Source of the DNA: Nymphaea colorata | Taxonomy: Eukaryota; Streptophyta; Magnoliopsida; Nymphaeales; Nymphaeaceae | Direction of reading: 5' to 3' | Assembly (NCBI RefSeq): GCF_008831285.2 | Contig: NC_045138.2 | Coordinates: 15,967,934-16,031,933, forward strand | Length of the DNA stretch: 64,000 bases | Shown here: positions 3,801 to 58,700 of the stretch, piece after piece | Position numbering within the stretch: position 1 is the stretch's first letter | How the letters are laid out: each line of letters begins with the position of its first letter | The notes under the pieces: model-generated | Databases searched by the model: none | What the model was told of the DNA's origin: nothing | The model's input: the letters and a program-made list of their open reading frames with translations, nothing else | Program-made: the position numbers and the translations under genes

Positions 3801-4744
3801 AATATATTTTATGCATAGCGAATATACCGTGTTTTAAGGACACATTTTCATGAACTCTACATTTTAATTTTAAACAGATATAATATCTAGGTCCATGCTT
3901 GCCTGAAATTCCTCATACTTTCTTTACTTGTAGATTCATTACATGCATATTTGTTTAGGTTCAAAGCACATGAAGGAGAATTTATCAAACCGCTCGTTCG
4001 TATCTCCAACAGCTCTTTCAACGACATGTTACAAAGATTCTTAATTTGGTTTAAAGAAAAAAAATATCATAGCCCAAGCAGATTGCAGAAATCTTAAGCA
4101 AGAACAAGCAGACACCAACAAAAAAGTTACCCATAAACAAACGGCATGAAACGAAAGAAAGACTAACCAACGATTATAATAAGATCGATTCTTCTTTTTC
4201 ATGGTCATTCCGGCCGGCAGGAGCAAAACGTCGATCTTCCGAGTGCGAGCAACACGCCGTAGTTCCTTCGCCCTCAAAGACAATTTAAAACCAGCGCCTC
4301 CTATCAATCCTTGCCTCAACTTCCGAGCAGACTCCGCCACTCTCTTGGTCTCCTCCAGCAGATTGTAATCTTTCACAGCACAACAACCAGAAAATTAAAG
4401 AGAGAGAACAAATTGCTAATGGAAACTGACAACGTTGGTAGTGGAGACGGAAGCGGCGTTTGGGGAAAAGAACCTGAGATGAGGTGGGCATCGTTGAATT
4501 CGGAGATAGGGATGAAGTGGGTTCGGTCCCTCCTGCCATTACAGTTGGTCCTTTGCTTATGGGACTTGACGCAGGGGAGGCTGCAGGTGCGGAGAGAGCA
4601 ACCTGGGCATCGATATTTGAAGGGTTGCACACCACACTCTTCACAGAGAGATGGACGAGGCGGCGGTTGTTCTTCGGTTGCTGCTGCTGTTGGGTGTAAT
4701 GGCGACGGTGACAAAGTCACCTTGGGATTCTGGATTTCTTCCAT
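877..4744 (-). CDS. BCD1: BCD1-like zf-HIT box C/D snoRNP assembly protein
   Basis: Five exons (transcript order): 4744-4474, 4369-4168, 3054-2986, 1846-1699, 1557-877. All introns are GT-AG and phases agree, giving 456 codons plus stop. Exon 1 encodes the HIT zinc finger: Cys34, Cys37, Cys46, Cys49, Cys54, Cys58, His62 and Cys68 are all present (LCEEC...CPGC...CSLPCVKSHK). The BCD1 core follows (DYNLLEETKRVAESARKL, LLLPAGMTMKKKNRSYYNR, WTIEWGFYSTDIVLVDHG, LKFFIREKVK). Known BCD1/ZNHIT6 proteins act in the nucleus with RUVBL1/2, NOP58 and NUFIP to assemble box C/D snoRNPs. The last 150 or so residues are acidic, Ser/Asp-rich and probably disordered. I chose the Met at 4744 (MEE, as in other plant BCD1 proteins), but the frame stays open to Mets at 4771 and 4900. 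Family call is sure; exact start is not. Confidence 0.93.
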
Positions 4745-18057: not shown

Positions 18058-21000
18058 TCACCAGCTGACCTGAAAATCACGCACTGTGACGAAATCCCAA
18101 CGTTCTTTTCTCATATCTAAAACTTCTTTGTCTCCATCGTCATATAATATCTGCCACAAAATTTTACGGTAGAGACATCATTTTTTTCCAACATCCTATA
18201 GAATAAGTTACAAAAGGAAAAAACACCAAAAATGTAGCATTCGAACAAACAAGAAATCAAGATTAGCCACACATAATGGACATTCATTACTCACTGTGTG
18301 TTTTTTGTTCTTTGCATTATAGGCTGATATTTTCCCTTTATAGAATCTGCAATTTTCACGCTACAGTAATTAAATAATGCAACGGAAAGCAGCATTCATA
18401 AAAGACAAAGAAGGCTCAAATCTAACATTTCATAAGATGAATGAATAGCACTCACCTCCACCAAATAACTTCTCAAAAAATACAGATTTAAAACAAAAAA
18501 TCGACTGTTATTACTGCAATTGTGAAAAATGCACAATTATATTCAAGTATATTCATCATAAGGCCCACCTTTGAGAAAACAGCCTAATAGGCTAATATCT
18601 ACTTTCCAGAAAATACAACATTCTTCAAGGCATCGGTGATGAAAAAGTTACTTAGCTATTATAAAGTCGAGATGGTTTACAAAAAATATTGAGATGGGAA
18701 CAAAACAAGGAATCTCAAGGACAAATTACACAATACATACATTATCAGTTTATACATGATTTTTCACTTCAACTGGGTTTAACAATGAACAACATGATAA
18801 GGAGCATCACATTGCAATAAACAGAAGCCATGCAACTTGAAACAAAAGAACTAATAATTTCAAAGTTGAAACTAGGCTGCAAAGATAATAGATACATCAA
18901 CTTTTGAATCCCAACAAAAACATATCAGAATTTAGCCCAACAGAGAGAAACAATTTTATTTTTCAATGATGACTGAAGTAGAAAAATTAGACAACCATTG
19001 CATAAAAATTGGCAGTAGGATGGTAGTCATTGAATCATTTAATCACACCTTTTGTCTTCTGGCCACCATACTTTCACACGTAGACCAATGCAGTCCCCTC
19101 TCCGCTTAATGGAGTGGCCATTAAGAAATCTTCCTGGATTATCAGAAAATAGAAGAAACACATAGAAAAGGGAAGGAGAGGAGGAAGAATCAGATGTCTG
19201 AATAGTGAAAATAACTGTTGAAGCAATGCACAAGGAGGCAAGCTTACCACTAGATATTTCTCCAGCAGGCCAATCCTATGCAACAGAAAAATGGCAGTCA
19301 ATTTATTGTCAACAGGCATGAACTAAGAGCAAACACAAACAGTAATAGTAAATGGAACCATAAAAGCCAGTTTTCCATATCCAACACATTATTACCCCAC
19401 TGAATAATAAGCTAGAAGTAAATTCTAGAATAAATTACACTTTATCACCTGTAGACTTTCACTATGTTATTCTATACCTTTTATTATATGGCCGAAGGGA
19501 AGGACAAATTAATTCAAGGCTCTCCAGCGAACATGAAAGGAAAGTATCCATACAGCACTCTTTTAACAGTGCCTAGAGGGAAGAGTGGCTCAGCTTGTCT
19601 GCATTGAATTTCTTCACAAGGACTATACTTCATGGAGGCCTCAAAAACGTTAGGGTCTTGTCACCTCCCCATGCTACCCCCATTTATATTTTTATTAATT
19701 GCAAGCTAAACTACTCAACACAAAGCAATTTGGGGACTTGCACCACCTTCATTTCCCTACGTAGTCAGTTTCCTTGCCCATATGTTAATATCTTTGACTT
19801 GCATATCTTAGACTTAATTCACACTACTATTGCACTTAAGTGTGCAACGTGAGACACATCTGCATTAAGATTAGCAGTGAAACCTTTAATGATATGTTAC
19901 TGTTCAATAAACAAATGGCACAATACATTTTGTCTTATTTTCCACCAAAATAACCAAATTCGATTACTTGAAGTGGAGAAAGGGATGCCCACCAAGGATT
20001 TACACTTTGCAACCAAGATGTTTCAGAGTATCTCTTAAAGGAATCAGCGTCCATAAAAGGGCACCATCAAGAGAGGCCATTTTATGGTTACAACTTGGTA
20101 GCAGAAAGGGATGAAAAGGACTTTCAGAGAAACTAGAGAAGCAGGAAAAATGAAGGATAACTAATTAACAGTCAATAAGAGGCTGTGAAATTATCAAGAG
20201 GATGGTATTTTTGATGAGAAGCTCAAGAGCTTATGTCATTTAAACTTTCAGTTAGAGGACCTTTTTTCTTTCTCTCTTTTTCCCAACATTATTTTTCTGC
20301 CAGGCAGTTCATTTGAGAATGGTTAGCCCTTCCCCACCCACAGATGCCAGACCTAGTTTCCTTCAAATTCCATAGAAATGCTAACTATTGGAAGCCGAGC
20401 CCTAAAAGGCACAGATTTGTGGGGTTAAAGGCTAATGGCCATCAAGAACACCAGCAACTCCTTTTCAAGCTTGGTTCCTGTTATAGCACGAGTTTTATTT
20501 TAACTTGTAAGTTCATTATGAATAGTGAAGTGCCATCCTTAAAGAATGTATTATCTATGATTGACTAGGCCTGTGTAAGAGAATAAAGAATTTAAACATT
20601 AAGAACAGATTATTTGAAAAAAAAAAAGGCCGTATGGAGAAGACTATATAGATTGGATGGAGCGTGAAAATGAATATGTAAAGGTTCTTTAAAAGTCCAA
20701 ACAACTTCAAAAGGCTTGACCAGCCACCTTCCAACTAGTAATTAGGTCAACTCGGTATGCTGTCGGTGAGCTGTAGATTTTCACAATAGCAACATGGGTT
20801 TAGGAGATCAACAGTTAACGTAAGGAAAGCAGTTTGACTGTTTGAGATGTTGCCCTGAATGTTCTTGACACTCGTCTCATCCTACATCACTTAAATCAAC
20901 TCATCCTATATCCACCAGATGATTGGTTTAAATTATCTCTCATCAAGATTTTGAACAGACATCAGGGTTTAACTCTAAGAGGCAAGTGAGGGTGACCATT

Positions 21001-24000
21001 AAGCATTAAGATGGACAGACTAAATAAGCAATAAAGGCAGGGAAACAAAGAACAGAGATGGTGGGATTTTGTGATGAGGAAGTTCAGTGTCCAAATCGAT
21101 AATTCAAATAGCTAGAGAGGTTGCAACAGGCTTATATAATCAGATACCGAATGGGAACAATCAGCTAAGGAGAAGGTTTTGAAATCTTCAGAGGTTTTAG
21201 TAGGTTTACACAGGACTCTTGTGAATGGGCTCCACAAGAGAGGAGGTATTCCACAGAGTAGCTCGCCACAAATAGAGCCATGGCATCAGTTTGAAGGGAA
21301 AGCCCCATGATTGACCTCCTTTGGCATCTAATCTGTGAAGTCTATATGTCTAACTCCATCTTGTCAAGAAAAAAACAAACTTAGCCAATTTAATGAACCA
21401 AAATATCGACTTACAAGAAGGCCTTTTTCATATAGAAATGCTTTCAGTATAGGTGAAGTAGCTGCCACCTCACAAGCAACAAACTCAGTAGCAGCCTCTG
21501 AAGATAGCTTCTGCTTGCTGGGCTTCGCTCCCAACTTTCCTCTGCAACCCAAAGCACCACAGTAGCACTCTTGATCCTTTCCAAATTGAATAAACCTACA
21601 AGTAGGTCAGCAAACGGACAATATCACTTTCAGAAGAAACTAATATAGTAAATAACGGACCCAAAAAAAGAAACTAAAACATGGAAAAAGATAAGTAGAT
21701 CACTATATAAACAAGCCCATATATCATGTAGACATAAGATGCTGGATTTACTACAAAGAATGTTCCCAGCACAGTTACAAGAGAAAATGTAGGGTTTCCG
21801 TACTGATAATCATAGGTCAAAGGCTCGCCCATCTTAATCTTGCGTTTAGCAAAAATTCCAATTCTGGTCTCACCATCAACTCTCCTGAAATAAGAAATCA
21901 TAATCAGTAAGAGATTTATTTTACAAGAAAAAGGTAATTCCATTCAAAGACAGGTAGAGAACCATTTCTGCATTTCAGTATTGGGCTGACAACTATGGTT
22001 CATAAAGCGAGACTTGTTTCCCTTGTATGTGGCATCAATAACCATATCCCTGTTAACCTCACACAGATAAAAGTTAGTTTCACCACGGCGCTTCATTTCC
22101 CATAGCCTCTCCTCACATGTTTTATCATCAATAACTGCACAAACAATGTGAATGTTTCATGTTTCCTTTATTAAGAATAACAAAGATGATAAAAAAGTTT
22201 CAGATAATGACCTTCACCCACATATTCTATGACAAACTCCCCCTGACTTATATCCTCTTTTGCTACCAATCCTAATCCACATTTCTCAGTCTGCAAAAAT
22301 ACCAAGTAAGATGGAATCAAGAAGGGGACAAACCTACAAGTCATGATAATTACAATATGAGCTTTTTAATTTCTAATAAAAGAAACCATACAACAGCTAA
22401 CCATCGACAAACACAATGTGTAAGATTATTCAAGTCCCTGCTAATTAGCAGCATAGAACCGTAATTTTCTCAATTGCTTGCTATGAGATTGGAGAGAACA
22501 CCATGCAACGATAACATTAAGAGAAAAATGTTTAAGATACCAGTTGCCCTGGTATGGACTTCACCAACCTTCTGTGTAAGAATAACAAAAAAAGGGAGTT
22601 TCAAGCATCGACTCATTAAAAGGAAGAAATATTAGAAAGCATTGAGGCACAATGATTAGAGTCATTAGACACATCATGAATAACTCAACAATCAAACCCA
22701 CCACATCCACCCTCCCAAAAGACTGGAGAAGCCTCAAGCAAGAAAGAGTTCAATCGCCAATATTGGATTGTGCAAAAGTAAAAGTCTCCCACGTGCACAA
22801 GAGAAGCATGAATAATTGCAGTTCATGGAAAGCAAAACAGTGAATAAATGTCTAACAAGTAATGGGGGAACACTTAGCATTTATACAGCCATACGGAGGA
22901 ATCTAGACATACTTCAGTAAGACCTTCAGTCATTTATATTTTTTCACAATAGCAGATGAAGGACCATAACTCTTTTCCTAAAGCAGAAGTATAATAAGAT
23001 ATAAAATAAAAACTAAAAAGGTATAGGTTGGTTAAATTCAATGTTTTGAACCAACAGAAACTTGAATTCAAGAGAAATAAACAAGTGTCTAACAATATGA
23101 AAGACAAAAAAACTAGACTGCTTTATTTTCTTGAGAAAGAATCTGTGAATTAAGATGTACCTTCACTACTTTCATTTTCTTGCTGACACGACTCTGAAAA
23201 GGCCTATTGGCACACGAATCTGCACATCGGCAGCTGGATGAACAGCAAGACAATAACATCCTGCGGATAAAGACATTCAGCAATGCAAATTGTTCACGGA
23301 AAATAACAAATCAGGCAAGCAACAATGATGTGTATTTTTTGCATATTCATGAAGCACATTAAACAGTTGATGGCAGTAACCATCAAATGAAACAGATAAG
23401 TGAAAGATCCAAAATAAGATCAGTCTTACCCACAATGGCAATCTTTCTGACACACAGTTGATGATCCAGGAGAAGCAGCACAGGAACAGAAAATTCCATC
23501 ATCTTCATTACGCCTCTTCGGTTTCTTTGCTAGATAAACATCTTTAAGAAGTTAAGACCTGAAGACAAACTTGCAATTGCTTGGCTACTTAACGATAAAC
23601 ACCATAATGAAAATGTGAATGTTGCTAGGAATTTGAGGCCTCACCAAATGCACAACCTATGATGCTACTAGAGGGGACCAACTCTTGGTGCACAAAGCCT
23701 TCATTCTCTGCTTACATGATATTTCACATTGACATAGAACTGGCAAGAACCAAATTGTACTACTCTTTTCTAAACATTGTACTTGTTAAATATCATACTT
23801 ATCAATGAGATTCAAAAGAATATTTTCATGTGAATCTCTTTGTAGTCAAGCTCAATTGACATCGAACTATTTAGACATTATGTTCATCCATGAATCTCTC
23901 TGTAATACTTTAATTTGTCTCTCAATCAGTGTTGTAAATCTCAGTTTCCATCTCCTATTGGAAACCAAGAACACCAATACATATTGACAACAGGGATCAG

Positions 24001-37872: not shown

Positions 37873-40800
37873 GAGTCAAATTCCTTTTTCTTTTACATGC
37901 TTTTTTGAAGTGATTGTTAAAAACTAATTCTCACCTTGGGAATTGGGATGGATTTTTCTATGTACCATCAGCTTACTACTTTTCCAGCGAAATCATTGAT
38001 TTTGATAAAAAAGACGAATCATATCCCTAATACATTGTGATTAGGTAACCAAATGTTTGGAAAGAGTGGGCAGCCTTTCTTCAATTTGTAATCTATTATA
38101 ATGATAAAGTGCTTATAACAATGGCCTAGACAGGTCAATGGTTTTTTAAATGTGAAAAAATGTTTGTGAATGGTATACAGCCGGTTATGTTTTTAAAAGT
38201 AATTACAAAGTTCTTTGATGCGGCCAGCAGACTAAATCTGCAGGAGTCTTTTTGTGTCATTTATATATTATATCTGCTTTCTAGTAAGTTAGAATCTTAT
38301 ATACTTCTGGCCGTATTGGATGAAGTGGAAGGTATTGTGAACAAATAGAAGCACGTGATTTCTTTTTTTTTTTTTTTTTTTTTTGGGGGGGGGGTGGGTG
38401 TTCCTTGGCGTATAGTAGGTGGACATAAATGTGCCAAATTTGAATAGGGCGAAGCTATTTCTCTATTTGACTATCACACTGTCAGGCTTGGATTTGATGT
38501 GCAAAGCACAAACAGAAATTGGAATTTTTCTTGTATCCTTCTTTGAATATCCATTGAAACCATTGAGAAAAGCCTAAACCAAATCTGAACTCACTTGTTT
38601 ATTGGTTCGTTTTCTTTCACTAAATGTGATCAACTGGATTTACAATTGTAGTAGATGATGATAGGTGACTCTTAACATCCTTAATGATACAAGATGAAAT
38701 GGTGATTATACTAAGCCTCTGGCTTCAAGCCTATTTTTTTGGCACTGAAGTGCTAGTTTCTTTTCACACTGTACCTGGAACCTAGCTGAACTTGGCATCT
38801 TCGTGCAAGCTTGTAGCTGCATGGAAACATGCAACTAATGTGAGTTGAGAAGGGTCACTAGAAGGGAAACAATTTGTGCCCCTGATGTGTACTTGACTTG
38901 TCCACCCCTGTGAGGAAGCATTATTAGAAGATACAATGAATGTCTCAGGAAAGAAAAAGTTATCATTTTGTTCACTTTACTTGAGCTATTTTAATTCATT
39001 AAATAAAAGGAATGATGGTGGATGATTGTAGTTTGAAAATGCTTGGAATGGTGGAACTCACATTAACAATTGAGGATGTTTGGTTGTTATTGAGCAATGT
39101 GTCTAATGATGAGAACTGATGTTGATAAAATGGATCTAATATACACAGATGTATGGCCTGTCAAACTGTTAGTGGTACGATGGTGGTGGAGGAGGCTATT
39201 ACGTGTTTGTATGTTTTTGTAATTTATGTTGATCCATGTAGTGGCATGCAAATTATGTGCCTGGTGTTTCATCTGACATATTTGTGATGTTACAGTAACA
39301 AGCTTTTGCTATTTTTTCTGGTCGTTTTTCAAGCTCATGAGCTTCGTATTATTTAAGAAAACTTTATTTATTTATTTATTTTGCCTGCAGAGATGAACAT
39401 CCTCAAATTCTATTTCAAGGTATTTTGTCAATAATGACACTTATTTTGGAGGAGGAAGTTACACAACCACTTTTGGATGTGATATTGCAAAATCTGCTGA
39501 AGGATGAAAAGGTTCTTTTCTTTTTTTGATGATATTGTTTAATTGGCATTTCACCATTTTGTGCAACACAGGTGACATTTGTTTTGTCAGTATATCTCCA
39601 ATTTATCTTGTTGGTCTGTATGAATTTTTGGTGACTGAGTGGAGAGAAAATTCATCTGCAACTTATGGTTTTGAAGCCAACACTACATGTTCCTTAAAAG
39701 ATATTGATGGAATTAGAAAAAGAAACCTGGAAATGTTTTATCAATTTGAGTTTGATCTAAACAAAGTATTAGATTCATTAAACAGAACAAAACTGAGCAT
39801 TTGCTTTATGAAGTAATACAAGCTATGATATTAGTACTTCACGATGTCTATCTCATAAGTGGATACACTAAATTGAAAATTGTTTTATTTAGAATTTTAG
39901 AGAATTCTAAGGAATGAATATGCCATTTGCCACTTTTTCATATAAGAAGAAAATTTAGCCAGAACTAAGTTTACACATATACATATATGTGCTAATTCCA
40001 ACCTAGTTGACGACAACATACTGGTTTAGCTGATTTTCAGAGAAATTGTTTACAATCTTCCTTTGTGTGTGAAGAACTGGGCTTAAATGGAAATATCTCT
40101 TGGTTTTTTGTGCTCTAACATCTCTCCTGTTGACTTGTACTAGATTGCATAGAATTAGTGAAAGGCATTAGCTTGTGCATGCATACATTTATTTGGTATT
40201 CTGTAGCGTGTATCTGTCATTATTGTTGCTGCTGTTTTATCATTCCTTGTACTGTTTTTTTTAACCTTCTTCTGGTTAGCTAGGAAATGCACATGCTCCC
40301 GTTAGGGCCATTAAACGTGAATAAAACTGTCTTAAACATGTCTAATGATGATAACAAAAATTTATTTGCTTGCATTTGCATTTGTGATGGGGTGTCTGTT
40401 TCAGTATGCAACTTTGTAATTTTATGTATAAATACTGTGCAATTTTTTTGTACGACAGGTGTTGTTATCTTTAACATTGTTAACTTTTCACTATGTCATT
40501 TCGTGGGTGTTAAACTTGTGCCTTTTCTTGTTACTGTCATGTAGGCTTCGTCTTTGATGAATGGGCTTTTGATTGATGTTTTTACGTAGTAGATAGAAGT
40601 TCAGGTTTTTAGATACTAACCCTGGATCTTGAAATGTTCATACTTGCAGAATGTGTCTCCTGCTTCCTACAGGCTTGCGGTCTCTGTCATCCAAAATTGC
40701 ATGGAAAAGCTTGAGCCTTTTGTCCGAAGGTTCTTGACATCATCAATTATCGATAGAGGAGCTAGAGGCAGTGAACTTGGAGAAGTTTACCATGAAATTA

Positions 40801-43800
40801 TTTTTGAAATTTTCCAGTGTGCCCCTCAGATGCTTCTTGCTGTGATCCCGAACTTGACACAGGAATTGCTTGTATGTATTCCAAAAATTGTTGGTTGTTG
40901 AACATAATTAATGCCAGGTGGTTTTATATATCTTTTTGATGAAACTGTTAGCAGTAGAAATTCTTACTTTTCTATGAAGTCATGCACTCTTGCTTATATC
41001 ATAAGTAGGAAATGCTTATACATGTTCCAGAATTCTTGGCTTCTGCATTTTTGTGTCTGCCAGATGCTTGACAATGCACTCCATTTCTGTGAAGCTATTT
41101 TAGTACAATTGGTTTAATTTAGGCCCTTGAGGTTGAGATGATATATTTTGCACTTGTATATCTTAAAGCACATGTGATGTGTTGCAGATTGACCAAGTGG
41201 ATGTCCGTATGAAGGCAGTGCAATTACTTGGGAGGCTTTTTTCATTGCCTGGATGCCAGGCTGCTCATGAATATCATCAATTATTTGTAGAGTTTTTGAA
41301 GCGATTCTCTGACAAATCTGTTGAAGTCAGGCTAAGTGCCCTGGAATGTGCTAAAGGGTGCTATATGGCCAATCCTTCTGGTGTAGAAGCACTTGACATT
41401 CTTGGTAAGACAGGATGATGTTGATAATTTCTGCATTTGTTTAAAAGCCTTTTTGCAATAATGTTTGGTCACTTGCCTCATGTACCCTTCGGCACTTGCA
41501 TTTGGAAGGTGCTCTTGAAGCTCGGCTTTTGGATTTTGATGAAAAAGTAAGGGTTCAAGTTGTGAATATAATTTGTGATTTGGCACAATGTCATCCAAGA
41601 TGCATTCCCTCCGAGTTAGTATTGCGTGCGGCAGAAAGGCTTCGTGATAAGAAGGTGAAATCTTGTTTTAAACTGTTTTTTCCTGCTTCACCTAGCATGA
41701 GTAGAATAGCTTGGCAATTGTTATTATTTGAAATTCTATACATATTGCAGGTTTCAGTCAGGAAAAATACAATGCAGAGGCTGCTGGAATTGTATACGAG
41801 TTACTGCAATAGGTGCTTTGAAGGGGAGATCACACCAGATGATAATTTTGAGCAAATTCCGAGCAGAATATTGAGACTTTGCTATGACAAGGACAGCAAG
41901 GATTTTAAGTACGTCTTATGTGATTTGTTTGATTGGAAAATAAACCTTTCTCTTTGGGATGATCATTCTGGATGGTGACTGATGGATCTAAACCTTCATG
42001 ATGTATTAAATTGTCTATTATTCTACAGGCCTCAAAATGTGGAACTTGTACTTGCGGAAAATTTATTTCCTGCTTCACTTCCAGTTGCAGAAAGAGTCAG
42101 ACATTGGATATCTTTCTTCTCTTTCTTTAATTCACCACATATAAAGGCACTAGAGTCTATCTTATCTCAGAAATGGAGGTATTTTCTTTAAGTGGCGATT
42201 TTATCTTTTGTATAAGCTGTGGTTGTTTACTTCTTAAATCTTTTGTAGGTTACAGATGGGGATGCAAGAATATTTGGCTCTTCGGCAGAAAGGAAAGGTA
42301 ATAGATATCTGTGGTTTCCTTTGTTTTCTATGTATGCTCAAATTTCAAGTTATGATACTTCAGGTCTTAAGCTGTCAAATTGATGCTTGATGTGCATGCC
42401 ACATTAACATGGCACGAACTGGACATGCCATGATCCATCATTGGTACTGTCTATGCGTGACATCTTCTTAATTTATACTTTTTGCATGGTTTCAATCCTG
42501 TTACGTGCTTCTTCATAATATCTTCATATGCTTTTCCAATTTTTAGCTTTAGTTCTGCTTTATCATTTGTGAATCCTAGTATTTCTGTATCCTGTTCAAG
42601 CAACTGCAGTTTATAGGTGATCCAAATAATGTGTTTAAACTCTGAAGTATGTTTATATGCATGTGTCCCATTATTTTTGTGTGTGCGCTTGCAAGGCTGT
42701 TTATCATTGCATGTAGTGCATGTCTACATGTATACAATTTGGTGACAGTTAGTGGCTAAAGAAAAATCAAGGGAGATAGAAGAAGAAATGTAAAGGGCTC
42801 AACATTTGGACAAGTGACTGGAAACTCTCCCCATGTTCTGTTTATTACTGCTTACAATGTTAGGAGAAAATGACAGAAGATTTTGATGTACATTGCTACT
42901 GCACCATAAAATCCTAAGATTGGAATAAAAAACTTACAATTGTTTAACTGCTTACTTTCAATAGTTTCTTTTTATGCATGTAAAAAATCTTGTCTATCAG
43001 ATGTAGTAAAAGCCATATAGGTTATTTAGGTTGACTGATTTTTCAGATTTGCATCTTAAACATCGCTGTTTACAGGGTCATGTTTGGGAAATATTTTGTA
43101 ATATTTGTAATATCTAGAGAACCTTTTTGCTTGACATATGAACTAATTGGATAGCTCTCCTAGTGTAGTATATATCCTTGTAACTAGAAAAAATTGCAAA
43201 TCCCATTTGACAAGTGGGAATAACAGTTCGATGCTCCCCTTTTCATACTCATCGAAGAGGCACTCAACTTTTTTGTGTATCTCTCAAACAACTGATTTGC
43301 ACCAAAAAACAATTAATTAATTGTTGAAATGACCAAATTGGCCAAGCAAATCAAAATTTAAAATTAAAATTTTTTTTTAAAAATCATGGCCTCCACGAGA
43401 TGGTAAGGGCTTGTGGATGGCGGCCGTCGCTCTTCGCTATTCAGCAAGACGCGATGGTGTTTGGCCATCCCCATAGCTTCCCTATTAGTGGCAAGGAGCA
43501 GGGACCAGCCAATCCTCTCTAAACACTGCACAATAGTGGTTAGCTGGCCATCGACCCTCGCTGAACAGTGAGGGCCGGCTCCATTGCCTCATGTTGTTCA
43601 GCAGGCGTTGACAGCCAGGGCCATTAGCTGCCGCTCAAACATTGGCCGTTGTTGCTTGTTGGATGAGTGGTGGGGACCAGCCAATGCCCTTGTGTCATAT
43701 TGAATGCAAGGGGTTGGCAAGGGGTTTGTTTGGTTGCTTCCCCTTGCCATCATCAAACCAGCGATGATGGCGAGGGCTGATGTGTCGACATTTGGGTGGC

Positions 43801-46800
43801 AGCTGTCACCCACACTGTTGTTGCTTGCTGGACGGCTGTTTTTGCTTGGGCAACGCTTGACGCCCACATTGAACAGCGAGCGTTTGCTTGTGAGTTGTGG
43901 CACCTTGTTCTAAATAGTGAGGGCATCAATCCAGCAAGATTGGCTCCATCGTCTAGTGAACGACAACACTGAGGGCTGATGTCCATCACCCAAACATTGG
44001 CCATTGCTTTCGCTGCTCGCTTGATGATGGAGGGCAGCAACTAGTGAAATGGTCACCTAAAAGTGTTTGGCTGGCCGTTGGCCCTCGTCATCTAGTACAA
44101 CGAGGGCCAGCATTTGGGCGACCGCCATTGGCCCTCATTGTTGCGGCCCACTGGATGGCGTGCTGCACTGGAGTCGACCCTCGTTGAACGAGGGTCGAGA
44201 GCCAGCCAATTACTGTTGTTCAGTGAGGGTCGACTAGCCCTTTCTCCTCGCCATCGAGAAAGAAGCGACGAGGACGTTCGGATGCCGTTGCTTTTTGCTG
44301 GACGATGAAGAGTGATGGCTGTCGGGTGATTGTGTAAGAGATACACCAAAAAATTGGGTGCCTTTCTGATGTGCATGAACTTTTATTCCTTCATTTGTTG
44401 AACTGGAATTTGTAATTTTTTCTAACTATTATTGTTGTTTTTTTTTTTTTTTGTGTGTGTGTGTGTTGGCAGCAGAAAAATGAGCAAAATAGGTGCTTTT
44501 CTTGCATCCAAAAATTGGTGGTGGTTTTGATATGTCAGGTTTTGAAAAATCAATGGGAGTGTAGAGCTTCTTTTCCTTTCAATGTAATAACTATAAACCA
44601 GTGTTGCAAATTTCAGTGTCACATATAGGAACCCATAAAAGCTGATGCTCATCAGCGCATATGATGTGGGGCCATATCGCCCATAAAAAATAAATCACAA
44701 AAATAAAAATACATTATTATTATTGTTTTATTATGGTCATATCAGCTGATTAAATTTATAAACCCCTGGTCGGTTGATATTCTGGAGGGGCCATTGCAGT
44801 CCCTTTATAGTTGTAGTTTGCAGGTGATACAATGCATTTAGCTGGTAGATGCACAGCAACATTGGCACAAACCTATTGCTTATAGTGCTGAACTAAATAA
44901 CTTGGGTAAAAATTGCAGAACCTTAGAGACCCAAAAGGGCGTCTTGCAATCCCTGGATTCCATGCAATATGAGAAAAATAAAAGGAGTTTATGAAGGGCG
45001 AAAAGTAACTCTTACTATATTATCAGGCTGAAATAGGCTTTTGTTGAGGAAAAAAAAATGCTTCTGACAAGAAATTGTTCTGTCCATTATGTATTCTGTG
45101 CTTAACTAATTTCCTGCAAGTCATCACATTGACTTTTGCCTAAAATGATATTATATAATGTACAATGAACTAATGGATCCTAGACTGTGCACAATGCACA
45201 TATATAATGCTGTCTGGATTAGGTTCTATCACTTTCATTGTAAGAGTTGAGGTCAACTATTTGTGTCTATGAGCTTCAAATCTTCACACTGGCAGTCACC
45301 AAAGGTTAATTGTTTGAACATTTGATACACCTTTCTATGGGATTTTCCTCTCTATTAAATTTATGTTTATTGTTCCATGTCCTGGAGTTGTTTCATTTAT
45401 TTGTCAGTTTTTCTTTGTCAGCAAGTTTCCTTTCCTGGCAGAAATAGAAAAAGCTATATTGGTTGCTGCCGTGAACTGTTGCTTTTTTATTGCATTTATG
45501 TAATGTTAGTGTTGAAAATGCAGGATGGAAATTCTGATGCAGTGCACAAAGAGGTCTTGGCTTGTTTCAGGAAAATGTCAACTTCCTTTGCTGATCCTGT
45601 GAAAGCACAAGAGAATTTTCAAAACCTGCATCAGATGAAGGATAACAGCATTTTCAAGACATTGCTGTCCCTTCTAGATGAGCAAAAGGATGTCGAGGCT
45701 GCTCAAACTATTCGAGTGAGTTCACAACTGTCTTTTTGTTTGCGTACTTTAACTATCTTCTTCTGTACATGTGTTGGTACAAATTGGTTTATTTTCATTA
45801 CTTTCCAAGTGTCTTGATTGGCAGTCACTTGACAGTAACACACTTTTCTGTCATCAATCAGTGGGGAGAGAATTGGTCCGATTTGCATAGATGACTTTAT
45901 AAATTTAGATTTTCATGTAGCTATGGTACTCAGTAGTCTACAGCAAGTTGCTTTAAAAACTAAATAGTAAATATATTTTCTCCACAAGATGTGAAACAAT
46001 GGAAGGGTCTGCACAAAGCAATTCTATGAATGCAGATTTTGCTGCGTGTATCCAATGGACCGTGTCCAATGGATTGTCAGCAATGCAGTTTTAGTAACCA
46101 AAATGCCTCCACAGAATTGAGAAAACAGTAGATGGATCTGATGGAGCACTTCAGAGATGCATGCTCAACCTTTTGGAAATTATATTTCATCACTCTGGCT
46201 AGGAAGCATTTCTTGTTCCTAATCTTCTACAATATTGAGGCTTCCTGTTATGGATTAAATGATCTCCTTCCTTGGTCGTACCATTGGACCTCATTTCTCA
46301 TTGCTTTTGTGCTATCCATATCATTTCTTTCTGCGACGCATGAAAAAGTTCGTTCATTATAGCTTACTTCAACAGGCCATCACCGGTTTCTGTCTGGATG
46401 AGAGTAAGTAGCTAAATATATGTTTTTGGTTCAACAACTTTTGAGTTTCGACTTATTCAGGAGTTATATTTGTTGCATGTGATGACCAGTATCAAAGGTT
46501 CTGCCAATTGCATGAGGCCTGGTAAATAAGGCTGGGTGTATGAGCTTGTTTTGGTCCTCTTAGGCATCCTTTTTGAATGTTTAGCCCATAATGTCATATC
46601 TATTTTTACTGCCTCCTGTAATTTTTTACTGGTCTTTTCTTTTCTTCTTTTCTTCTGTTTTCTTTTTTATTTTTCTTTTGATAGTTGCCTCTGCATGCAT
46701 TGGGTCAACCTTCATCTTGTGTTATAACTAATGAGGTTGCCTGAGCTTGCAGCCAGGTAAGGGCGTTTTTCTGCCTGGGTTTCATATCATTAAAATAGCA

Positions 46801-49800
46801 TTGTAAGCATTCTTGGATCTGGATTTTTTTTCAAAATCTTGTTAGGATCTGATTTAGGTTGGTCTGTCATCCTGTCCAGGTTTAGACTATTCTAGATTGA
46901 ACATGATCTAGGTTCATATAAATTTTTTTTATGTTACGTTTTTTAATTACAAGGGGCAGTATTATTTCAACTTGGCTTGTACCTGAATTTAGTCTTTATG
47001 TTATCACATATTATTTGGATCCTAATAAGGACTTTAAGATGGCTTCAGATGTTGGACGTACAAAACCTAGGGCAAAATGTCATATAGGTGCAATATATGG
47101 GAAACTTATCATATGTAAACGGAAGATAGTTTAGTGCTTAAAGCTCATGACAAATACTCGTAGCTTTTAGGAAGTCCCCATTCAACTTCTCATTAGAAAA
47201 AGTTCCTACATGTTTTGGCTTTTGGGTTTAAAGACATTTTCAGAATGAACAAAGGAAACAAAATTTAATGTCAGCAGTATTCGTTTATATCATCAACTTC
47301 AATTTGGTTGTTAAATTAGATGCGTCAGAACTGCGTATGAACTAGATGATGATATGAGATGCCCATCCCTTGGGATGGGCAGTTCTCGTGTTACTTGGTA
47401 AAAGTTGTAAATATGGAGCATATTAATTTTAACCATCAATTAATATGTTTGAGATAATGATAAGACACAGGACACAATGTAGACCATATGGCTGATGCTC
47501 AGTTTTCAATGTAGACCATGCGTGACGTTTAATTTAACACTCCAATATCGTTGCATATAGTGTTTTAATTTTTTGAGCTTTGAGTACAGAAGCAATGTAT
47601 TGATGCTTTCATGTCGTGGAGTACTTGCACTAACGGTTGGTGGTTTACAGTTGGTTCTCTGTTACTCTTTTGTGTTTGTTGTTTACTAAATTATATTGCA
47701 CTTTTCCTCTCCTGTTGCTTGTTAGGATGATCTGCTAAAGAGGATAGGAAGTAGGCATCCACAATATGAATTCTTGAGGATACTCAGTGCTAAATGCTCA
47801 AACACCTTATTCAATGCGGAGCATGTCAATTTGATCATTTTGTATTGTCTGTCTAACAATGCTCAAGCCAAGGCACTTGTGGCTTCCGCCATAGATCTCT
47901 TATGGGTAAGAAGTATAGCATGGCTTATCTCATCGTTCATTTTCACTTTATGCTTTTTAATTATATGATTCATGGACTTTTTTGATATTTTGGGTAGTGT
48001 TGTTCATCATATAAACCGTTATAGGTCTAAGGTGTCTATGTTCTTATTTTGGGTAGTATTATTCAGCCAACAGAGTGTACCCTTTAGAAGCAACAGGTTG
48101 GGAAACCAAGAGAAAGATGTTTTCCATTTCTTGTTGGTTGTTGTCGTCCTTCAAATAATCTTGTATAACTTCTCTTAGGTGGAAAATCCATTATTCTTAT
48201 TCCACTAGGGCTTGATTATGAAAAGAATTAGTTTGATCCAGATCATGTTTTTTAGTGAACAGGTATGAGAAAAATATATGCTCGCGCACACATGCTCTCC
48301 AATGCAAGGAGGCTTGGTTAATGGAAATGTGCATGAGGGCATGTAAGCTTTTTGTTCTCCAAAAGCATCTAATGTCAGGATCTTTCTTCTTCTAGTCCTG
48401 TTGCTAGTGTTGTCTGCAACTTTTGGTCTCTCATTTGCCATCTCTCGGTTCTGGAAGCAGTAGAAATATTGAACTGAAGGAATCATCAAATATGATCTCC
48501 ATATATAAATGTATATGTGTGTGTTTGCTGTGATCACACACGTGTGCCTCCATGTAAGCATCTGTGCATGTGCATCTTTTGTTTTTTGGCCTTTACATGA
48601 AATACAACAATATAGAATGTGCTTGGAGCCGGTTTTGCTTTAATCATGTTGAACAAAATTCAATGCTAGCATAAACTTGTACTTTTGGAGATGCACCTGC
48701 ACTATTCTCAAGGCTTCCTTGCTGGGTGATTTATCTCAACAATCTGTCTACTGTTTTATGGTTATCATATAAATAACATCAGCAATAATTCTCAAAATTT
48801 GTGGAGTTCTCACTCTTTATGCTGCAAACCATTTGCCTTAGAGTGAACCTATATATGCCTGTTATGTATTTTCGTATGTTACTGCACACTTTGTGCTTTA
48901 TGTGCACTGTTATTGGGTATCTGGTACTTTTTCTCCAGAATATTCTTAGTGTTAGAACTAAGTGTGCATTTTTATATCAATTTGTGGAAATTTTGTTTAT
49001 TTTTGTTGCTTTATTTGTGTGATTTGATCGTATTCATTTTCTTGTTTGGGAAGACTGTGGTCAACATCTGTCCTTCAATTCTAAAAGGCTCTGAAGAGGG
49101 CTTTGTTAAGCTGTTGATGGAAAAACTTTGCCCTTTCGAAGACAAGCTCCTGCAGACTTTGGCCAGAGCAGGCAGTCATATTTCAATTGCATTTCCGTAA
49201 GTATATTGGCTATTGTAATAAGGTTATGAATCTGTTCCATGTTTATGCATGATTATACACATAGTTGGAAATGACGTTCATTTGTATTAATGTTCCCATT
49301 TCCCAACTTTTAGATGTTGATTGCTTTTCTTCTAGACCACTGATGTTAGATATAGGCAAAATGTTTCTCTTATAATTGCTGCCTTGGAAAGGACGTGCAT
49401 ATCTCTGTGGTATGAGTGTCTCTATGTGTTTGAGGTATTAGTGTCTTTGTGAGGTCTCCTGCATTTGAAGTTTTTTGCTTTTGTGCATTCTTATATGTCT
49501 AGTCTTTGCAATTGGCACCGGCATAAGTGATGCAATACTTTGAACAGTACAACTTGCAAGTTTGGAATTGTAAATCAGGCCCAAACAAGATTAATGCTTC
49601 AACAATGTCACACTTGAAGCTTCCTCCAACACAACAAAGTAATACTCAAGAGGCCTCACCCAAGAGGAACAAATAACATATATTGATTCCAATAAACACT
49701 ACAAGAAGTGGCTAAAAAGCCATCAGCAAAATAGTGGAGCATGTACACGATTTATAGAGGAGAGAACAAAAGGGAGAAGAGAGCTAGCCGTTGGGACTAG

Positions 49801-49929
49801 TTCCAACGGCTAGAAATCTAGCCGTTGGGACTAGTCCCCTTTTAGGAATAATGAAAAAAAAGGGGTAAAAAATAGGGGAAGTAAAAATACATAAAAAAGG
49901 AAAAATTACATATGTATCCTAATATCCAA

Positions 49930-49986
<57 letters not shown>

Positions 49987-52665
49987 AGGCATATATTAGA
50001 TGACTAATATATGTAATATATATATAAATGTATATGTATACATTTGGAATACATACATTCTAACAGGAATTTGTGGTTGCATTTAGGAACGCTTTTAAAC
50101 GAGCTAGTAAATTAGTAATGTATACATTCTGAGTTTGTGCTGCACTTTTTATTTGCACCGCTTCTTCTTTCAGTAATCCTGCATTAACTTACTAATTTTT
50201 AGTCAATTATTTTGGTTTCTAGTTCAATATTTCCATTCCTGGAGCAGCAGTGTTTGGAGGGAACCCGTTCACGAGCAAAGCATTCTCTTCCAGCAATTGT
50301 TGCATTAACAGATGCATCATGTGAGCCAGCTTTGTCAGATCTGTTTAGGGTATGTTTGTCCTGCTATTCAACCAGGAGATGGGCTTGGAAGCAGTTATAA
50401 ATTAATTTTTTACTATGCCAGAATTTGTTGTTTCGGACTTTCTGTTAATGTGTTTCTGTTCTTGGCATATTTTTTAGATCGAGGATAATGTCTAATTATT
50501 ATTATCAACTAAAAGTTTCTCTTCTCCCCATTTAAACCTTTTCTTTTGATTCCATTCTATGTAAATGCAACTTTAATATAATGTAGCTGCCTCTGTCATG
50601 ATACAGTCGGCAGGCACTGGCCGATATACTTAATGGATTCTCTATACACCTGATTAGATTGGACACGTTTGTATATTCCAAAACTCAAATTTCAAGAAGG
50701 GGTACATGTTTCGTGTTTTTTATTTTTCTATTTGGCCTTTATTTGTCTTTTTTTGCTTGATCAAGAAAAACTGGTAACTTGGTAATCTGATTGACTTTGG
50801 GGTGCATCGTGGATGTAAATCTGCTTGCTTAATAACTGGTGCTTATGTCTCCAATAGTCTAATTAGATATTTTATTGGAGAATTTTTTAATTGTTTATTT
50901 ATATTTTTTTGATAGGAAATGCCTGTCGTTTTTATTTTTCTTTACATACTTTTTGCAGGACTCAAAATTTTTGAAATTTTCCAGGGAAACCACTTTTTTG
51001 AGAAAAAAAAAACTCCTGAGAAAAACTTTGCTGAGAACAAGATTGATGCCTATGTTTTGTTTGCTGAACCCAAATTCTGGCATCGTTTTTCTTTTTTTTT
51101 TGGAGAGCTTTCGTTACATTTTATTTAATTTGATAGCTTGGAATTAATCTTTTCTTACTTTCTTTTCTTTGCTTCACTCATGCTCCATTGGTTTATCCTT
51201 TGAGCGGCTATACACATATTTGACATAGCCTCCCCATTTTTATTCCCTCATTACATCTCAACATTATTTTAAGCTGTGTTACATGCTTCAGCAAATTAAA
51301 TCTGAAGATTTTGCACTAGCAGCATCTATTGTATCCTACAAGTAGGGTATTTGGATGATCGCGGGGAAACAGCCACATGCGAGTTTTGTTAACATTTTGT
51401 TATTATAAATTTGGTTTTCTTAGAATATCATAATTCTTCTTGATAATGTTTTTCATTGTTGATGGAATCAAATGAATGATACTTTCCTTTTTTTCTTTTT
51501 ACATGTGCTTATTATTTCTCTCCGTTTATTAATTTCAGAAACTTGTGGACTCTCTTTTTGCTGGGAGGAATGTGCCAACTGTTTTACAATCATTGAGCAC
51601 ACTTGCTCAACATCGTGTTTCAATGTATGAAACTTGTGATGAAGAAATCACACAGCATATCATTCAAAAAATTTTCCGAGTGTCCAATGTGAGTTTTTAA
51701 TGCCTGAAATCCTTGGAAAAGAGGCTACTTTTTGACTATTTCAGTCTGAATTAATTGCTGAATAATGGTGTACTACTGTTTGTTCAGTCAGATTGGCATG
51801 ACCACTTGGATGAGGGATCATCATGTACCTACAACTGTAAATTGAAGGTATCTATTATCGAGTAGTTTAAAATTTATTTGAGCCACACAGGAAGATGTAG
51901 GTGTTATTCCTTAGCTATTTGTGCTTTGTGTTCATGTTTCCTCCCATTATATATTAAACTATTTTTTCAAACAGGTATATGCTCTGAAGGCACTTGTCAA
52001 GAGTTTTTTGCCATTAGAAGGAACTCGTTCAAGGCAAAAGCTTGGGCGACTATTTGGTATTTTATTAAAGCTCATGCTGGTGGGTGAAATTTCAGATGGC
52101 ATTAATTCAAGGTATGTTCTTGCTCCGGCAGATTTGCTATTGTACTTTTTGGAAGATGTTAACTCAGATTTGGGACGTTTATACTCTGCTACTGAAAACT
52201 ATATCTCATGGTTCTTTACCATATAAACACAGAAAGGGAAGTTGCTAAGCAGGGTATCATTTTGTTATACTCTTTTCTGACTTACGGCATTTGCTTTTCA
52301 AGTTCTTTTTCCTGGTTGTGAAGTAACTTTGGCTGTAGGATCTAGTTTGGAGCCTATTTCAAAAGACATAAAGCTATGTTATCCCAGAAATAAATAAATT
52401 AAATTTCAGGAACCACCAAGAAATTGTCAGGATAACATTGTTATTTATTTGGCAGTTCTGCACTTCAATAAGCATCTCACTGTTTGTGACTATCCTGAAA
52501 TGGGGAAGAATGTTAAAATACAACATGTCTTTGGTGTTAGTCAATCTGCTCTCTACTCATTTACTAGTTTGCTACCTATCCGTTCCCAATTATCTTTTTC
52601 CTAAGCTTACAAACTAGCACAAACTGAATTTAGAAATGCAAATTGAAGGTCTACACACACACACG

Positions 52666-52727
<62 letters not shown>

Positions 52728-55700
52728 CATATATATATGATAGATATGTAGAGAGAGGACATAATTTTTTGTGAACTTCTGCTTTTATCTGCACTTTTTG
52801 TGATACAGCCTTTTCCTAGTTTGTTTTAGTTATGTGTACATTTAACTTGTATTTTTTATGAACACATGCTATTCTATGCAATGCTTATTGACAGTAATAT
52901 GGCAATGCCATTTTATGTTCATTTAATATTTTCAGTGAGAACGACAAAGCTCATCTCAGGTTAGCTGCAGCTGTATCTGTTCTTCGACTGGCTAGAAAAT
53001 GGGATGCTCAAGTTTCACCACAACTTTTCCATGTAGTGATTCAAAGGGCTCGGGTAAGCCAGATGAATAAGCTTTTGCTCATCTTGGGGAAGTAAAGTGA
53101 ATTTTTAGATTCATCTTGGGTCTTTTCATTTTCATGTCATTAAAGCTCTATATTGTTTCACTTGATGTTTATGGTTGTTACTGTTATATGTGCGCATGTT
53201 ATGTAATTCCAATGTGTAATAAGTCAATAGCTATGTTTCTGAATGCGTTATTATGAAAATAGCAAATAAATTGTATAAACCTGTCTGTCAGCTGCATGAC
53301 CTGTTCAGCATGCACGATGTTGATTTGTACTCCATTCTGTTAGTTTTTGTTGTGTGAATATGCTCAAGTGTACTCCAATCCCTTGTACATCTGGGCATGC
53401 TAAAGTCTCGCTGAGGATTCAAAACGCAAAATTACTCACTTCCAGCTGTATTCCGTACAAATCTCAAGGTATCCAAGGAGAACAAATAAACAATAAACTA
53501 AAATCAATTTGAACTTAATATGCATATATGATTCCACAGGATTACTGATCAGCCTGATCTTGATGGTATGCTGATTCAGCCTATCATGTTATCGGGGTTC
53601 TGCATCTCCTAGTGAATGTAATCCTGCATTGCAACTTAGCATCCGGGCCAGTGAACTAGGTCAATGTAATAAATGTCGTTTGCCATCTCAACGCAGGATT
53701 TTAATATATGAAGCCAGCTAGGTTATGAAGTTCCATAAGAAATCTAATCCAACCTGAGACCTGAATTTGCTTTCTACTGGTATGATAACCATAGTCGACC
53801 AGTTAGTGGCTGGTCTAGCTTACTCTGTTTTAACCAGATTAGCTGCACTAATATATGGTTTTCCTTATGACAAAAACAATTGGACCTGCTGGCGTGTTTA
53901 CCATTATGTTCTAATTGAGTGGAGTCTGGATCACTCACCATTATGGGTGTCTGATCGGTTGTACCCAAATGTCAAGGACTCCAGAAATATTGATCTTTAA
54001 CTGCAAAATTTCTTTCTCTTTTAATGCTTGTATAGGCATGGAGGGGCTCATTACCCCACCAATTCCTTGCTGATATATTTTTGAGACTGAGATTTGTAGA
54101 AATTTCTTGTCATACTTTTTTTTTTTGTCATTTTTGCGAACACTTAATTTGGTATTTTTTATATCAGGATCATTCGGATTTGGTTCGCCATTGTTTTGTT
54201 GACAAAATAAACAAGTTCCTGAGATCACGCTCCTTACCCAGAAAATATGCTTGTGCTTTCGCAGTGGCTGCTTGTGTTTGCCATGACAATTTTCAGGAAG
54301 ATGTAGGTTTTTTAGCATTTTCTATCTTTGTTGCACATGTTTCATCTTGTTGTCATGCCTATGGGTTTGATTATGACAATGATTGGGCTTTACTCTGTTG
54401 CTTCTTCATTTCTCCCCTAGTGTGTAAGATACCTCACTGGATTTATAGAAGACTATCGTCAAGAGGCTCGGAATCGTCAAGCATCTTCTCACAACTCAGA
54501 TGGAGTAACAATGACATACTATCCTGAATATGTTCTTCCTTATTTGATTCATGTCCTTGCTCACGATCCACTTTTTCCTGATATGGATTGCCAAGATAGT
54601 GCTGGTTTTGTTACAGTTTGCAGGTACTTGTATGGTGTGTTAGTTATTGTTATTTGCAACACTTTTATTATGCAATTTGAAGCTTTCTTTCATTATTTTA
54701 TTGTTTTAAATATTGCTTTGCAGTCCTCTTTTTATTTTATTGAAGGCTCTTATCATCTCTGGTCCCACTGATGACATCAAAAGGGAATCTTCCGAGAGCA
54801 TATCATTCACATTAGGTATTCTGCGTGCTATTAAAATGTCAGAAGATGCTGTTGATGAAAAAAAGAGTAATGTTAGTATTCTGGAATTTCTGTTAAGATA
54901 TTACTTGGCTGTTCTTTCTTTTTGGTTTTCATTATTTTTGTTTTCTGCCTTCTGCGTTGCAGAACCTACACGTGCTAGCGGATGTTGGTTTGATTTTCAC
55001 AAAATCTTTGGGTGGAAGCAATCAGCTTCCTTCTCAAGTACTGGGGAAGGTTTTGCTTCCATCGTCTTTTTATAGAGTCAGGCCAGATGCAAAAAGCAGA
55101 AGGGTATGTTGACTACTATTTTGCTTGTACATTTGATTTTTTTTTTTTTAATTTTCTGACAAACGTCTGTTGTTTTTAGCTCAGGCAGATGATAATTGCC
55201 TGCCCGATTGTATTGCTAATGGCTCTTTCCTTGAAAAGGTTCAGAGTGTCTGGTCACATATTTTCCAGGTAGATTATTTGTTGTTTGTCCGTCTTTAATA
55301 TCATATTTCTGTTCATATATAAATATTTATCTATGCGCACACATATCCATACTTTTTTATAATCTTGCATGCTCTTATTATTTGAGTGCAGCTTTCTGGG
55401 AAACGGGGGAAAAGGTTGCAGGAGGAGGTTCTACATGTTGAAGATAAAAGCAGTGGGAAGTTGGTAACAGAAAAGCACTCAAGTCATAAAATAAGTGGTG
55501 GGGATAATATGGCAGATCTCTCTGATGGTAATGGAAAAGCATCTTCAAAGACCTTCAGAAGTGAAGGTAGCTCTAGGTGCAAGGCCAAGTCTGTGTTACC
55601 ATCTAAAACTACCAGTTCACAGATGTCATCTCATGAAAATTCAACCTCGAGCGATGGAGCTCTCAGAGACATTGTGCCTGGAAGCAGAAAAGAGAAGAAC

Positions 55701-58700
55701 ACTTCATCAGCTGCTGATATGATTTCAAAAAGGTTAAGATCTAGTTCTGGAAAAGGGACAGTTGGTTCAAACGGCATATGCCATAATGACAATAAGAGAA
55801 GTCATGATGTTGGTGCCAAATTGTTAAATAATTCACATGTGAGATTTCTGCTGCCTTTTGTTGTATAATCCTGCTGTGTGTGTTTTTTTATCTTTTTTCT
55901 AAGTCTTGTCTCTGCATATGCTGGTTGTTAAAGATGAAGCAGTGCAATGTTGGGGAGGCCTTAATTGGTCAGAGAATCAAAATCTGGTCGCCCTTTGATA
56001 ACTGGTAAATCGTTAACTTTCAATCTACATTCAAGTTGCTTTTCAAGCTCTGTTATTGTTTTTTTTTTTTCCATTTTGTCTTTGCGGTATTGATGATGTG
56101 GAGGCACTGGCTTATAGTTTTTGTCCAGGGACTGTCTGTGAGTACAATCCAGATAACTGCTCTTACATGGTATGTTACAATCTGTAAGTGATTATGGACT
56201 GTCTTTCCTGTTGTTAGTACCGAAAAATTTCCTTCTGGCATTATATTTCTTGTGGTTCTAGTGGTATAAATTTTTCCCAAGGCATCTTTAACAGAAAATC
56301 AACTTCCAATTTTCCCCTTTTCTGCACTATTTTTTGTTTATTTTGTTTTTTTGAAAATATCCTGCCTAAATATCATATGATTTTGTGATGGTTGATACTA
56401 GACCTAATTGAGATGTAAATTTTGACCATACTGATGTAAAGAATGGTTGTACAAGAAGAAGAAGTTTTATTTATTTATGTTTTTACGAATTTGCATAAGG
56501 AAACTCAGTTCCTCAAGCCTCACAAAAGGAGCGGTGGAAAAAAAAAAAACCTTACAGGTCCTCCTCAACTCCAGGAGGTTCACCAGCAAAAAGGACATTA
56601 GTTAAGGAACGAACTACTGACATGAGGGGTATAATAATATTTGTACTGGAAGACATGCTTTGGTGAAAGCTGTGCATGTTTCCACTCCTCCCCTGTCATA
56701 CTGGGGCTACTTGGCCAATGGTGCTGGTCATGCCTCATTGTTCAAGGTGAACCAGTTGTCATGGTAATTGCTTTTGTCATATTTATTTGTTCTTGTTTTG
56801 AGAACCTACAGGGAGGCAAGATGATTGTAAATCTGCTGATTTGCATGCAGATCTGATCTTATGCAGATCGATGGTGTGTGTTTGCTCTGAGAGAGAGAGA
56901 GAGAGAGAGAGATCATATCTGATGGACATTGCATGTACTTAACTCTCATCCTATAGGCATGTGTAATAATATCTGTATCACAGAGAATATTGGTGGTGTT
57001 AGATACGATGGAATGATACTTGATCGTTCTCAGGTGGTTTTCAGTGCGGTGAGGATATTAGCTTAAGAAACGATTGTTTGCCATGTAACAATTTGAATTT
57101 TAGTTCAATTGGCGACTCTATGGATCCTTTTAATTTCAAGCGATTTTAACTATTAAATATGTAGTAAAAAAGCACAAGCAGACTTAGTCACTCTGAAACA
57201 TGATAATGACTTCTGAAATAGTATTGTTACAGTAAATAGTATCTAACTTAATAAATGAAGATACGGCGAAATAACTTATGATTCTGACATGCTTTAGCTT
57301 TTAGTAGGTTAGCTGGTCTGGTAAAAAATGTCGGGCTATATAAAATAAATTATGGTTATGACATGCTTTAGCTTTTAGTAGTTTATCTGGTCTGGTAAAA
57401 AATGTAGGGCTATCTATTTACTTATGATAATACCATCTCTCTTGGATAGGCTTAGTACTCATTTGCATAGTGGATGCTTGGATTTGATTCACTTTGTTGG
57501 CCATGTTGGACCTTTTGGCTTTTGTTTTCAATGTTAGCAAAATATGCACCTCAATTGCTTTTGCAAATTGCAGTCCTGTCATGTTAAAGGATTGGTCCTT
57601 TTTGTATTCTTTGTTGAAGATTGAGTATGATAATGGAGACATTGAGAGGTTATGTTTGACAAATGAGCGTTGGGAAGCCGTGAGCATGGAGCCTGCATCT
57701 GAGAAGGTTTGTTCTGAGCACATCTGCCATCTTTTTTTGTTTTCTTTTTCTAATTCTAATCTTAGGTTATGGGGCCAATATTCTTTTGCAGGAACCTGAG
57801 GAACCTCATTTAGAAAATTTGTGAGTAATGGAAATCTTTTCACTCTCCAGTTTCCATTGTGTACTATGTCAATCTGTTCCATATTGTTTGCTCATTCTTC
57901 ACACGCTATACTGGTGCAGTACTTTCTTTAGTCAATATCGACTTTCTTGTTACATATTTTTTTTTTGCATATATTGGATTTGTTGGCATAAGAGTGGTTC
58001 ATTGGTCTGTTTTCTCCAGTCTAATCTACACATAATGCATCCTGCTTGTTAAAAAAAAACTGCCCAGTTTTTATCTTGATCCTAGGTGTTGTGCGTGGTC
58101 TGCCTTTCTTTTCTTGTTGTGTCACAGAAAATGCTTTTGCGTTAAAATTAAAAGATAAACACATATGAGCATAAACATTTCTGTAATTCATCTGTATTTT
58201 ATTTATTTCCCTATGGCTAATAGGATTTACTCAAGGTTGTAAAATCCCTGGTAGACAACCCTATGTTTTTCTGGTTTTCTGTTCATCAGTCTGCTAGGGC
58301 ATGTTAAGAGATGTTTCTTCTAGACAAGGAGACTGATCTCTTATGGCTTGGGATTTCTCAGGCAGGACAAGGGGAGAGCAGAAGCCGATCCATCTCCATC
58401 TCAGTGAGTGCCAGTTACTTGGTTCTTGAGACTATTTGCACTGTGGTTGGTTGCCTGACTTATGCTTCCAAATGTTTTCAGTGATATTTGGTGGGGCTCT
58501 TCTTTAAGTAATGACACTGGTCCACAAGATTCTGATGTGATAGAAGATAAGAGTGCTGAAGATCTCTCATCCTCTGTACCGTCAGATGTGGAGGGGGACC
58601 TGGACAGTAGAACTTTGTCGTCCTTTATAGGTAATTCTTTTGATTGTAGTATACCTTGTTTCTGTAGGGTTTTCAAAACCTTCCCGTTTTCGCCTTATAC

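Follow-up and report, generated by a model that had tools for sequence, protein, structure and literature searches.

A Tudor intron pair common to a predicted ASHH3/ASHH4-type SET-domain gene and PDS5-type genes of Nymphaea colorata

Genes of the window

The window, meaning the whole stretch of 64,000 nucleotides analyzed here, carries a SET-domain gene on the reverse strand and a PDS5 gene on the forward strand. The modelled coding sequence of the SET gene, upstream of which more exons may lie, starts in a cysteine-rich, AWS-like pre-SET exon (23430..23541, splice sites placed by eye), followed by a second pre-SET exon taken from the spliced reading frame (23161..23260), three SET-domain exons (22212..22290, 21963..22134, and 21804..21884), and a post-SET exon left in phase 0 (21415..21595; exon 7 in the numbering of the first-pass annotation, which is kept here). 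Exon 8, of 28 nt, is left in phase 1 (19248..19275). The last three exons encode a Tudor domain. Exon 9 opens it (CIGLRVKVWWPEDK; 19049..19133, from GT/AG enumeration and the reading frame), exon 10, of 52 nt, continues it from a phase-2 acceptor to a phase-0 donor (18295..18346), and exon 11 holds its end (ILYDDGDKEVLDMRKERWDFV) and the stop codon (18058..18150, from the reading frame). With this modelled splicing, the coding sequence joined from 23541 to 18058 was open across 326 residues. A donor-like CAG/GTCAGC in phase 0 lies immediately 5′ of the stop in exon 11, so one more exon is possible.

The SET part of the joined protein matched Pfam SET with an E value of 9.1e-28. In a sequence search of the structure database, the best solved relatives of the catalytic part were SETD2 (6.7e-49) and NSD1-3, with ASH1L lower, all of them H3K36-type; the SETD2/NSD match extended through the last of the post-SET cysteines. 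A cysteine pattern was visible in the pre-SET part, which had no Pfam AWS match at E 0.01. The order of a Cys-rich pre-SET, an H3K36-type SET, a post-SET, and a C-terminal Tudor is that of ASHH3/ASHH4 (SDG7/SDG24), and the C-terminal Tudor of this class is present in the SET gene by homology to the solved structure 7DE9. The label ASHH3/ASHH4-type has this architecture and PMC11508336 as its basis.

The HEAT-repeat exons of the PDS5 gene lie on the forward strand within 40620..54768, and more may lie upstream. All six pieces of the gene matched Pfam PDS5, five of them above the cut-off, and among solved structures it matched human PDS5B (5hdt, 2e-19). Its Tudor domain was read from the alignment and GT/AG enumeration as exon 25 (55934..56004, whose 5′ end is possibly further upstream), exon 26 (56118..56169), and exon 27 (57620..57706). 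Long CA/TG-type simple repeats stand inside the gene span at about 49885-50004 and 52618-52771, with HTHTHT runs in translation. Further along the same strand, a 687-residue ORF (60996-63056) was judged by eye to resemble a pentatricopeptide-repeat protein.

For both Tudors of the window the best solved match was 7DE9 (SET tail, 1.7e-17; PDS5, 4.7e-11), and it is this homology that gives the predicted Tudor fold. Both also matched Pfam PTM_DIR17_Tudor below the cut-off (24.6 against 27.2 bits for the SET tail).

The shared intron pair and its borders

The first-pass annotation had proposed that the two genes share a 52-nt Tudor exon. In the modelled splicing its coordinates, length, entry in phase 2, exit in phase 0, and flanking peptides were all recovered for both genes. 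The neighbouring exons had been said to align as well, and they do: a gap-free alignment of 53 residues, 23 of them identical, spans all three exons. Its score was 118, against a mean of 22.3 (s.d. 3.9) and a maximum of 49 in 2000 shuffles. Within the 159-nt Tudor frame of either gene, one intron follows nt 44 and the other nt 96. The two 52-nt exons align ungapped with only 26 of 52 nucleotides identical, which makes their split old, and no match was found between the SET and PDS5 introns at E 0.1.

The exon models were compared with other GT/AG combinations within set ranges, using hand-set splice weights and a Tudor-similarity ranking that is biased to models resembling each other. In the SET Tudor 195 of 8036 combinations were open, and the model of the first-pass annotation had both the highest splice score and the greatest similarity to 7DE9. 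In the PDS5 Tudor 92 of 6144 were open; here the corresponding model led in similarity and was third in splice score. If two introns per gene were placed independently, both would coincide with a probability of 8e-5 given 158 equal sites, or 5e-3 given only 20.

Relatives were sought in the N. colorata genome (407.8 Mb, 783 contigs). The RDM15 Tudor query gave 10 matches and the SET-tail query 11, of which three were the SET gene of the window, and introns were read in 11 Tudor domains of 10 genes. The RDM15 query missed both split Tudors of the window, so these numbers are minimum values in which unbroken domains are favoured. Both introns and the 52-nt exon were present in four of the 11 domains: the SET tail, the window PDS5, a PDS5 gene on C8 (21.11 Mb; Pfam PDS5 in three of three pieces, two above the cut-off), and a short PDS5-like gene on C4 (11.11 Mb), which is weakly identified (one of two pieces, E 0.0039, below the Pfam PDS5 cut-off). 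A comparison with PDS5 paralogues had been suggested as a check, and within this genome the C8 and C4 genes agreed with the claim in exon length and phases. The second intron alone occurred in two domains, both of ATX1/2-type genes, one on C2 (8.95 Mb; PWWP and FYRN matches) and one on C4 (23.96 Mb; PWWP match, SET match slightly under the cut-off); their own first intron is a different one, in phase 0 and seven residues in. The remaining five (MSH6, EPL1, a PTM-like gene with Tudor and DDT, and both Tudors of an 858-residue ORF) are uninterrupted within the domain. In this set of 11 the first Tudor intron was therefore confined to the SET tail and PDS5-type genes, and all four of these carry the 52-nt exon.

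The 11 matches of the SET-tail query included no further Tudor tail of the ASHH3 type, and the nearest SET relative outside the window by identity (C9:16845102, 61%) lies near none of them. Two loci from this query, which we take to be EMSY-like, have an unbroken first intron site and were left out of the 11-domain count and of the tree. A further match on C7 looks like chance, and searches of viral and prokaryote collections confirmed no relative. Several features were seen in passing: the C8 PDS5 gene has GC-AG splice sites at its first Tudor intron (reverse-complement coordinates of locus L012, about 3087-3793), the 858-residue ORF (C9:15.67 Mb) is uninterrupted and both its Tudors are of the SET-tail/PDS5 type, and ORFs that by eye resemble a Copia-type retrotransposon lie downstream of the MSH6 exons (reverse-complement coordinates of locus L022, about 4244-6690).

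From these comparisons, common ancestry of the inner Tudor exons of the SET gene and PDS5 is well supported at the sequence level. The first-pass annotation had gone further and argued for one ancestral exon set, moved between a cohesin cofactor and a histone methyltransferase, rather than convergence. Its ancestry part holds for the inner intron pair, found in four of 11 Tudors; intact transfer is unsupported, as the modelled 5′ borders differ in phase. In the chosen models the first Tudor exon is entered in phase 1 in SET (exon 9, after the 28-nt exon) and in phase 0 in PDS5. Acceptor-like sites in phase 0 also stand upstream in SET, which leaves its 5′ Tudor border less sure than the inner borders, and one phase-1 site stands in the C4 PDS5-like gene. 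No likeness was visible by eye between the residues preceding the Tudor in SET and PDS5. With modelled 5′ phases unequal, a symmetric, cleanly bounded cassette is unsupported; as modelled, the common part is the inner intron pair and not a unit with matching ends. An older phase-0 insertion whose border was later remodelled is possible, as SET exon 7 exits in phase 0 and the donor-like site before the stop is in phase 0.

Tudor relationships and the H3K4me1 pocket

By identity over 53 residues, the SET tail was closest to the C8 PDS5 Tudor (30/53), followed by the C4 PDS5-like gene (27). The window PDS5 ranked mid-list with 23, level with MSH6 and behind the EPL1 gene (25). The window PDS5 Tudor was the most diverged of the three PDS5-type Tudors and is for that reason a poor proxy for a donor. 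It had been predicted that the SET tail would nest within PDS5 Tudors. The tree (12 rows, 53 columns), in which the ATX pair formed the single starred branch, did not show this. A clade of the SET tail with PDS5 and RDM15 was compatible with the data (p-AU 0.217), and so were PDS5 with RDM15 without the SET tail (p-AU 0.30) and the SET tail with MSH6 (p-AU 0.212). Only the SET tail with ATX was rejected among these four groupings (p-AU 0.016). Such a 53-column tree is too small to settle donor or direction, and the case for a PDS5 link is carried by the introns rather than by the tree.

RDM15 (AT4G31880) is a reader of H3K4me1 (PMC8184781), and 7DE9 is its structure according to a figure legend of PMC13361950. 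The RDM15 work is cited for PDS5C in PMC11519323, where the Tudor of Arabidopsis PDS5A is described as similar to that of PDS5C. In RDM15, K4me1 is contacted by W616, Y623, Y641, D643, and D645, and H3R2 by E647 and Q654 (PMC8184781). The SET tail matched this Tudor without gaps over 52 residues and keeps six of the seven contacts (W, Y, Y, D, D, E). We take RDM15 and PDS5C to be one gene. All five cage aromatics and acidic residues are retained in the tail; of the two H3R2 contacts E647 is kept and Q654 is E, as in nine of the 12 rows compared, the tail included. The retention of six contacts was modestly over the expectation from overall identity (hypergeometric 0.034). The two proteins differ in that RDM15, which functions in RdDM, has its Tudor after an ARM-repeat part (PMC8184781), whereas that of the SET gene follows a SET domain and has E at Q654.

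The window PDS5 Tudor keeps three of the seven contacts, and two of the five cage and acidic residues, with S, C, and N at W616, Y623, and D643 and E for Q654. By residue comparison, the pair is asymmetric: the writer retains the pocket, whereas two of the three cage aromatics are gone from this PDS5 copy, which probably does not bind in the manner of RDM15. The C8 PDS5 and C4 PDS5-like Tudors each retain six contacts, and the loss in the window copy against this retention suggests paralogue specialisation. Between five and seven contacts are retained by the MSH6, EPL1, two-Tudor, and ATX domains, which makes the pocket a family trait and no pointer to PDS5.

The plant MSH6 Tudor is of the same type and is tied to H3K4me1 (PMC12292046, PMC13305816). 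In N. colorata it differs from the split SET tail in having one unbroken reading frame, and D645 is E. The two ATX1/2-type genes have seven (C2) and six (C4) of the seven RDM15 contacts, and the presumed H3K4me1 writers ATX1/2 may also read this mark. ATX1/2 were described in 2006 as sharing an Agenet variant with plant Epc-N proteins (PMC1388200).

Origin and predicted function of the Tudor tail

Our judgement leans towards the SET gene being an ASHH3/ASHH4-type H3K36 methyltransferase with a C-terminal PDS5-type Tudor, whose inner exon structure shares ancestry with plant PDS5 and which is predicted to read H3K4me1. The tail would have been gained by gene-fragment duplication or by fusion from a PDS5-type gene. 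It would bind monomethylated H3K4 as RDM15 does, and this binding would anchor the enzyme and steer H3K36 methylation to gene bodies marked by H3K4me1. We draw the anchoring step from the six retained pocket residues and from the ashh3 mutant, in which H3K36me3 is affected at genes that receive H3K4me1 from the writers ATX1/2/ATXR7 and ASHH3 is read as acting downstream of H3K4me1 (PMC9372134). Counting against the explanation are the modest excess of retained contacts, the pocket being a family trait, the unequal modelled 5′ borders, the tree with its compatible SET tail and MSH6 clade, the ATX genes that share the second intron, the Pfam Tudor matches below the cut-off, the weak identification of the C4 PDS5-like gene, and a different cue proposed for ASHH3. 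Genes that gain H3K9me2 and H3K36me3 in Arabidopsis ibm1 also gain ASHH3; the cue that the authors propose is H3K9me2/mCH together with H3K36me3, and they put forward ASHH2 for the part driven by H3K4me1 (PMC11204290). The word Tudor has no occurrence in the main texts of PMC9372134 and PMC11204290.

An account with an appreciable, though less than even, chance of being right places both introns before the split of PDS5 and ASHH3, in an ancestral plant Tudor gene, with losses in MSH6, EPL1, PTM, and (for the first intron) ATX and with no transfer from PDS5 to SET. The second intron in two ATX1/2-type genes agrees with it, being not PDS5-specific unless gained twice, as do the single starred branch and the compatible SET tail and MSH6 clade. 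Against it stand the rejected SET tail and ATX clade and the best match of the tail, which is a PDS5 Tudor. Comparable weight goes to the alternative that the tail reads another mark (H3K36me3 or H3K9me2), or none, and serves as a structural or protein-binding tail. The cue proposed in PMC11204290 speaks for this, and the retained H3K4me1-specificity residues of RDM15, both aspartates included (PMC8184781), speak against it. In the SET tail of N. colorata all five cage and acidic positions are kept. The tail of Arabidopsis ASHH3 may have an altered cage, and for that reason the Arabidopsis ASHH3 data may not transfer.

The opposite direction, a Tudor passed from a SET-domain gene to PDS5, is improbable. 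The tree data are compatible with PDS5 Tudors as a clade with or without the SET tail, but three PDS5-type loci with the exon were found against one ASHH3-type locus; these are copies rather than events, and split Tudors can be missed by the searches. Chance coincidence of intron positions in separately evolved genes can be set aside almost entirely: equal exon length does follow automatically once both positions agree, but the coincidence probability for two genes, the same positions in two more PDS5-type loci, and a protein homology far beyond the shuffled scores all disfavour convergence.

A Tudor in ASHH3/ASHH4 enzymes is known already, with ASHH4 reported from bryophytes onward, which would make the tail old (PMC11508336). 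SDG8/ASHH2 is likewise an H3K36 methyltransferase with an H3K4me1 reader, but there the reader is a CW domain and not a Tudor (PMC13361950). In the accessible portions of the open-licence literature, we found in print neither introns shared between ASHH3/4 and PDS5 nor H3K4me1 binding by the ASHH3 tail, and no named reader for ASHH3 downstream of H3K4me1.

Returning to the ASHH3/ASHH4-type enzyme with a PDS5-type Tudor, the shared exon structure is real and informative, and the functional prediction that the tail reads H3K4me1 is sharper than that of the first-pass annotation. As judged from its sequence, a further histone mark may direct the SET enzyme through its Tudor tail. A bolder version, which we hold to be unlikely, is that an H3K36 methyltransferase lineage captured the PDS5 Tudor exons as an H3K4me1 reader; H3K4me1 deposited by ATX1/2, also a recruiter of PDS5C and MSH6, would then directly recruit H3K36 methylation. 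Carried by the writer, a reader of PDS5 type would link ASHH3 to upstream H3K4me1. The shared introns are also a marker for the spread of one reader domain among plant chromatin proteins.
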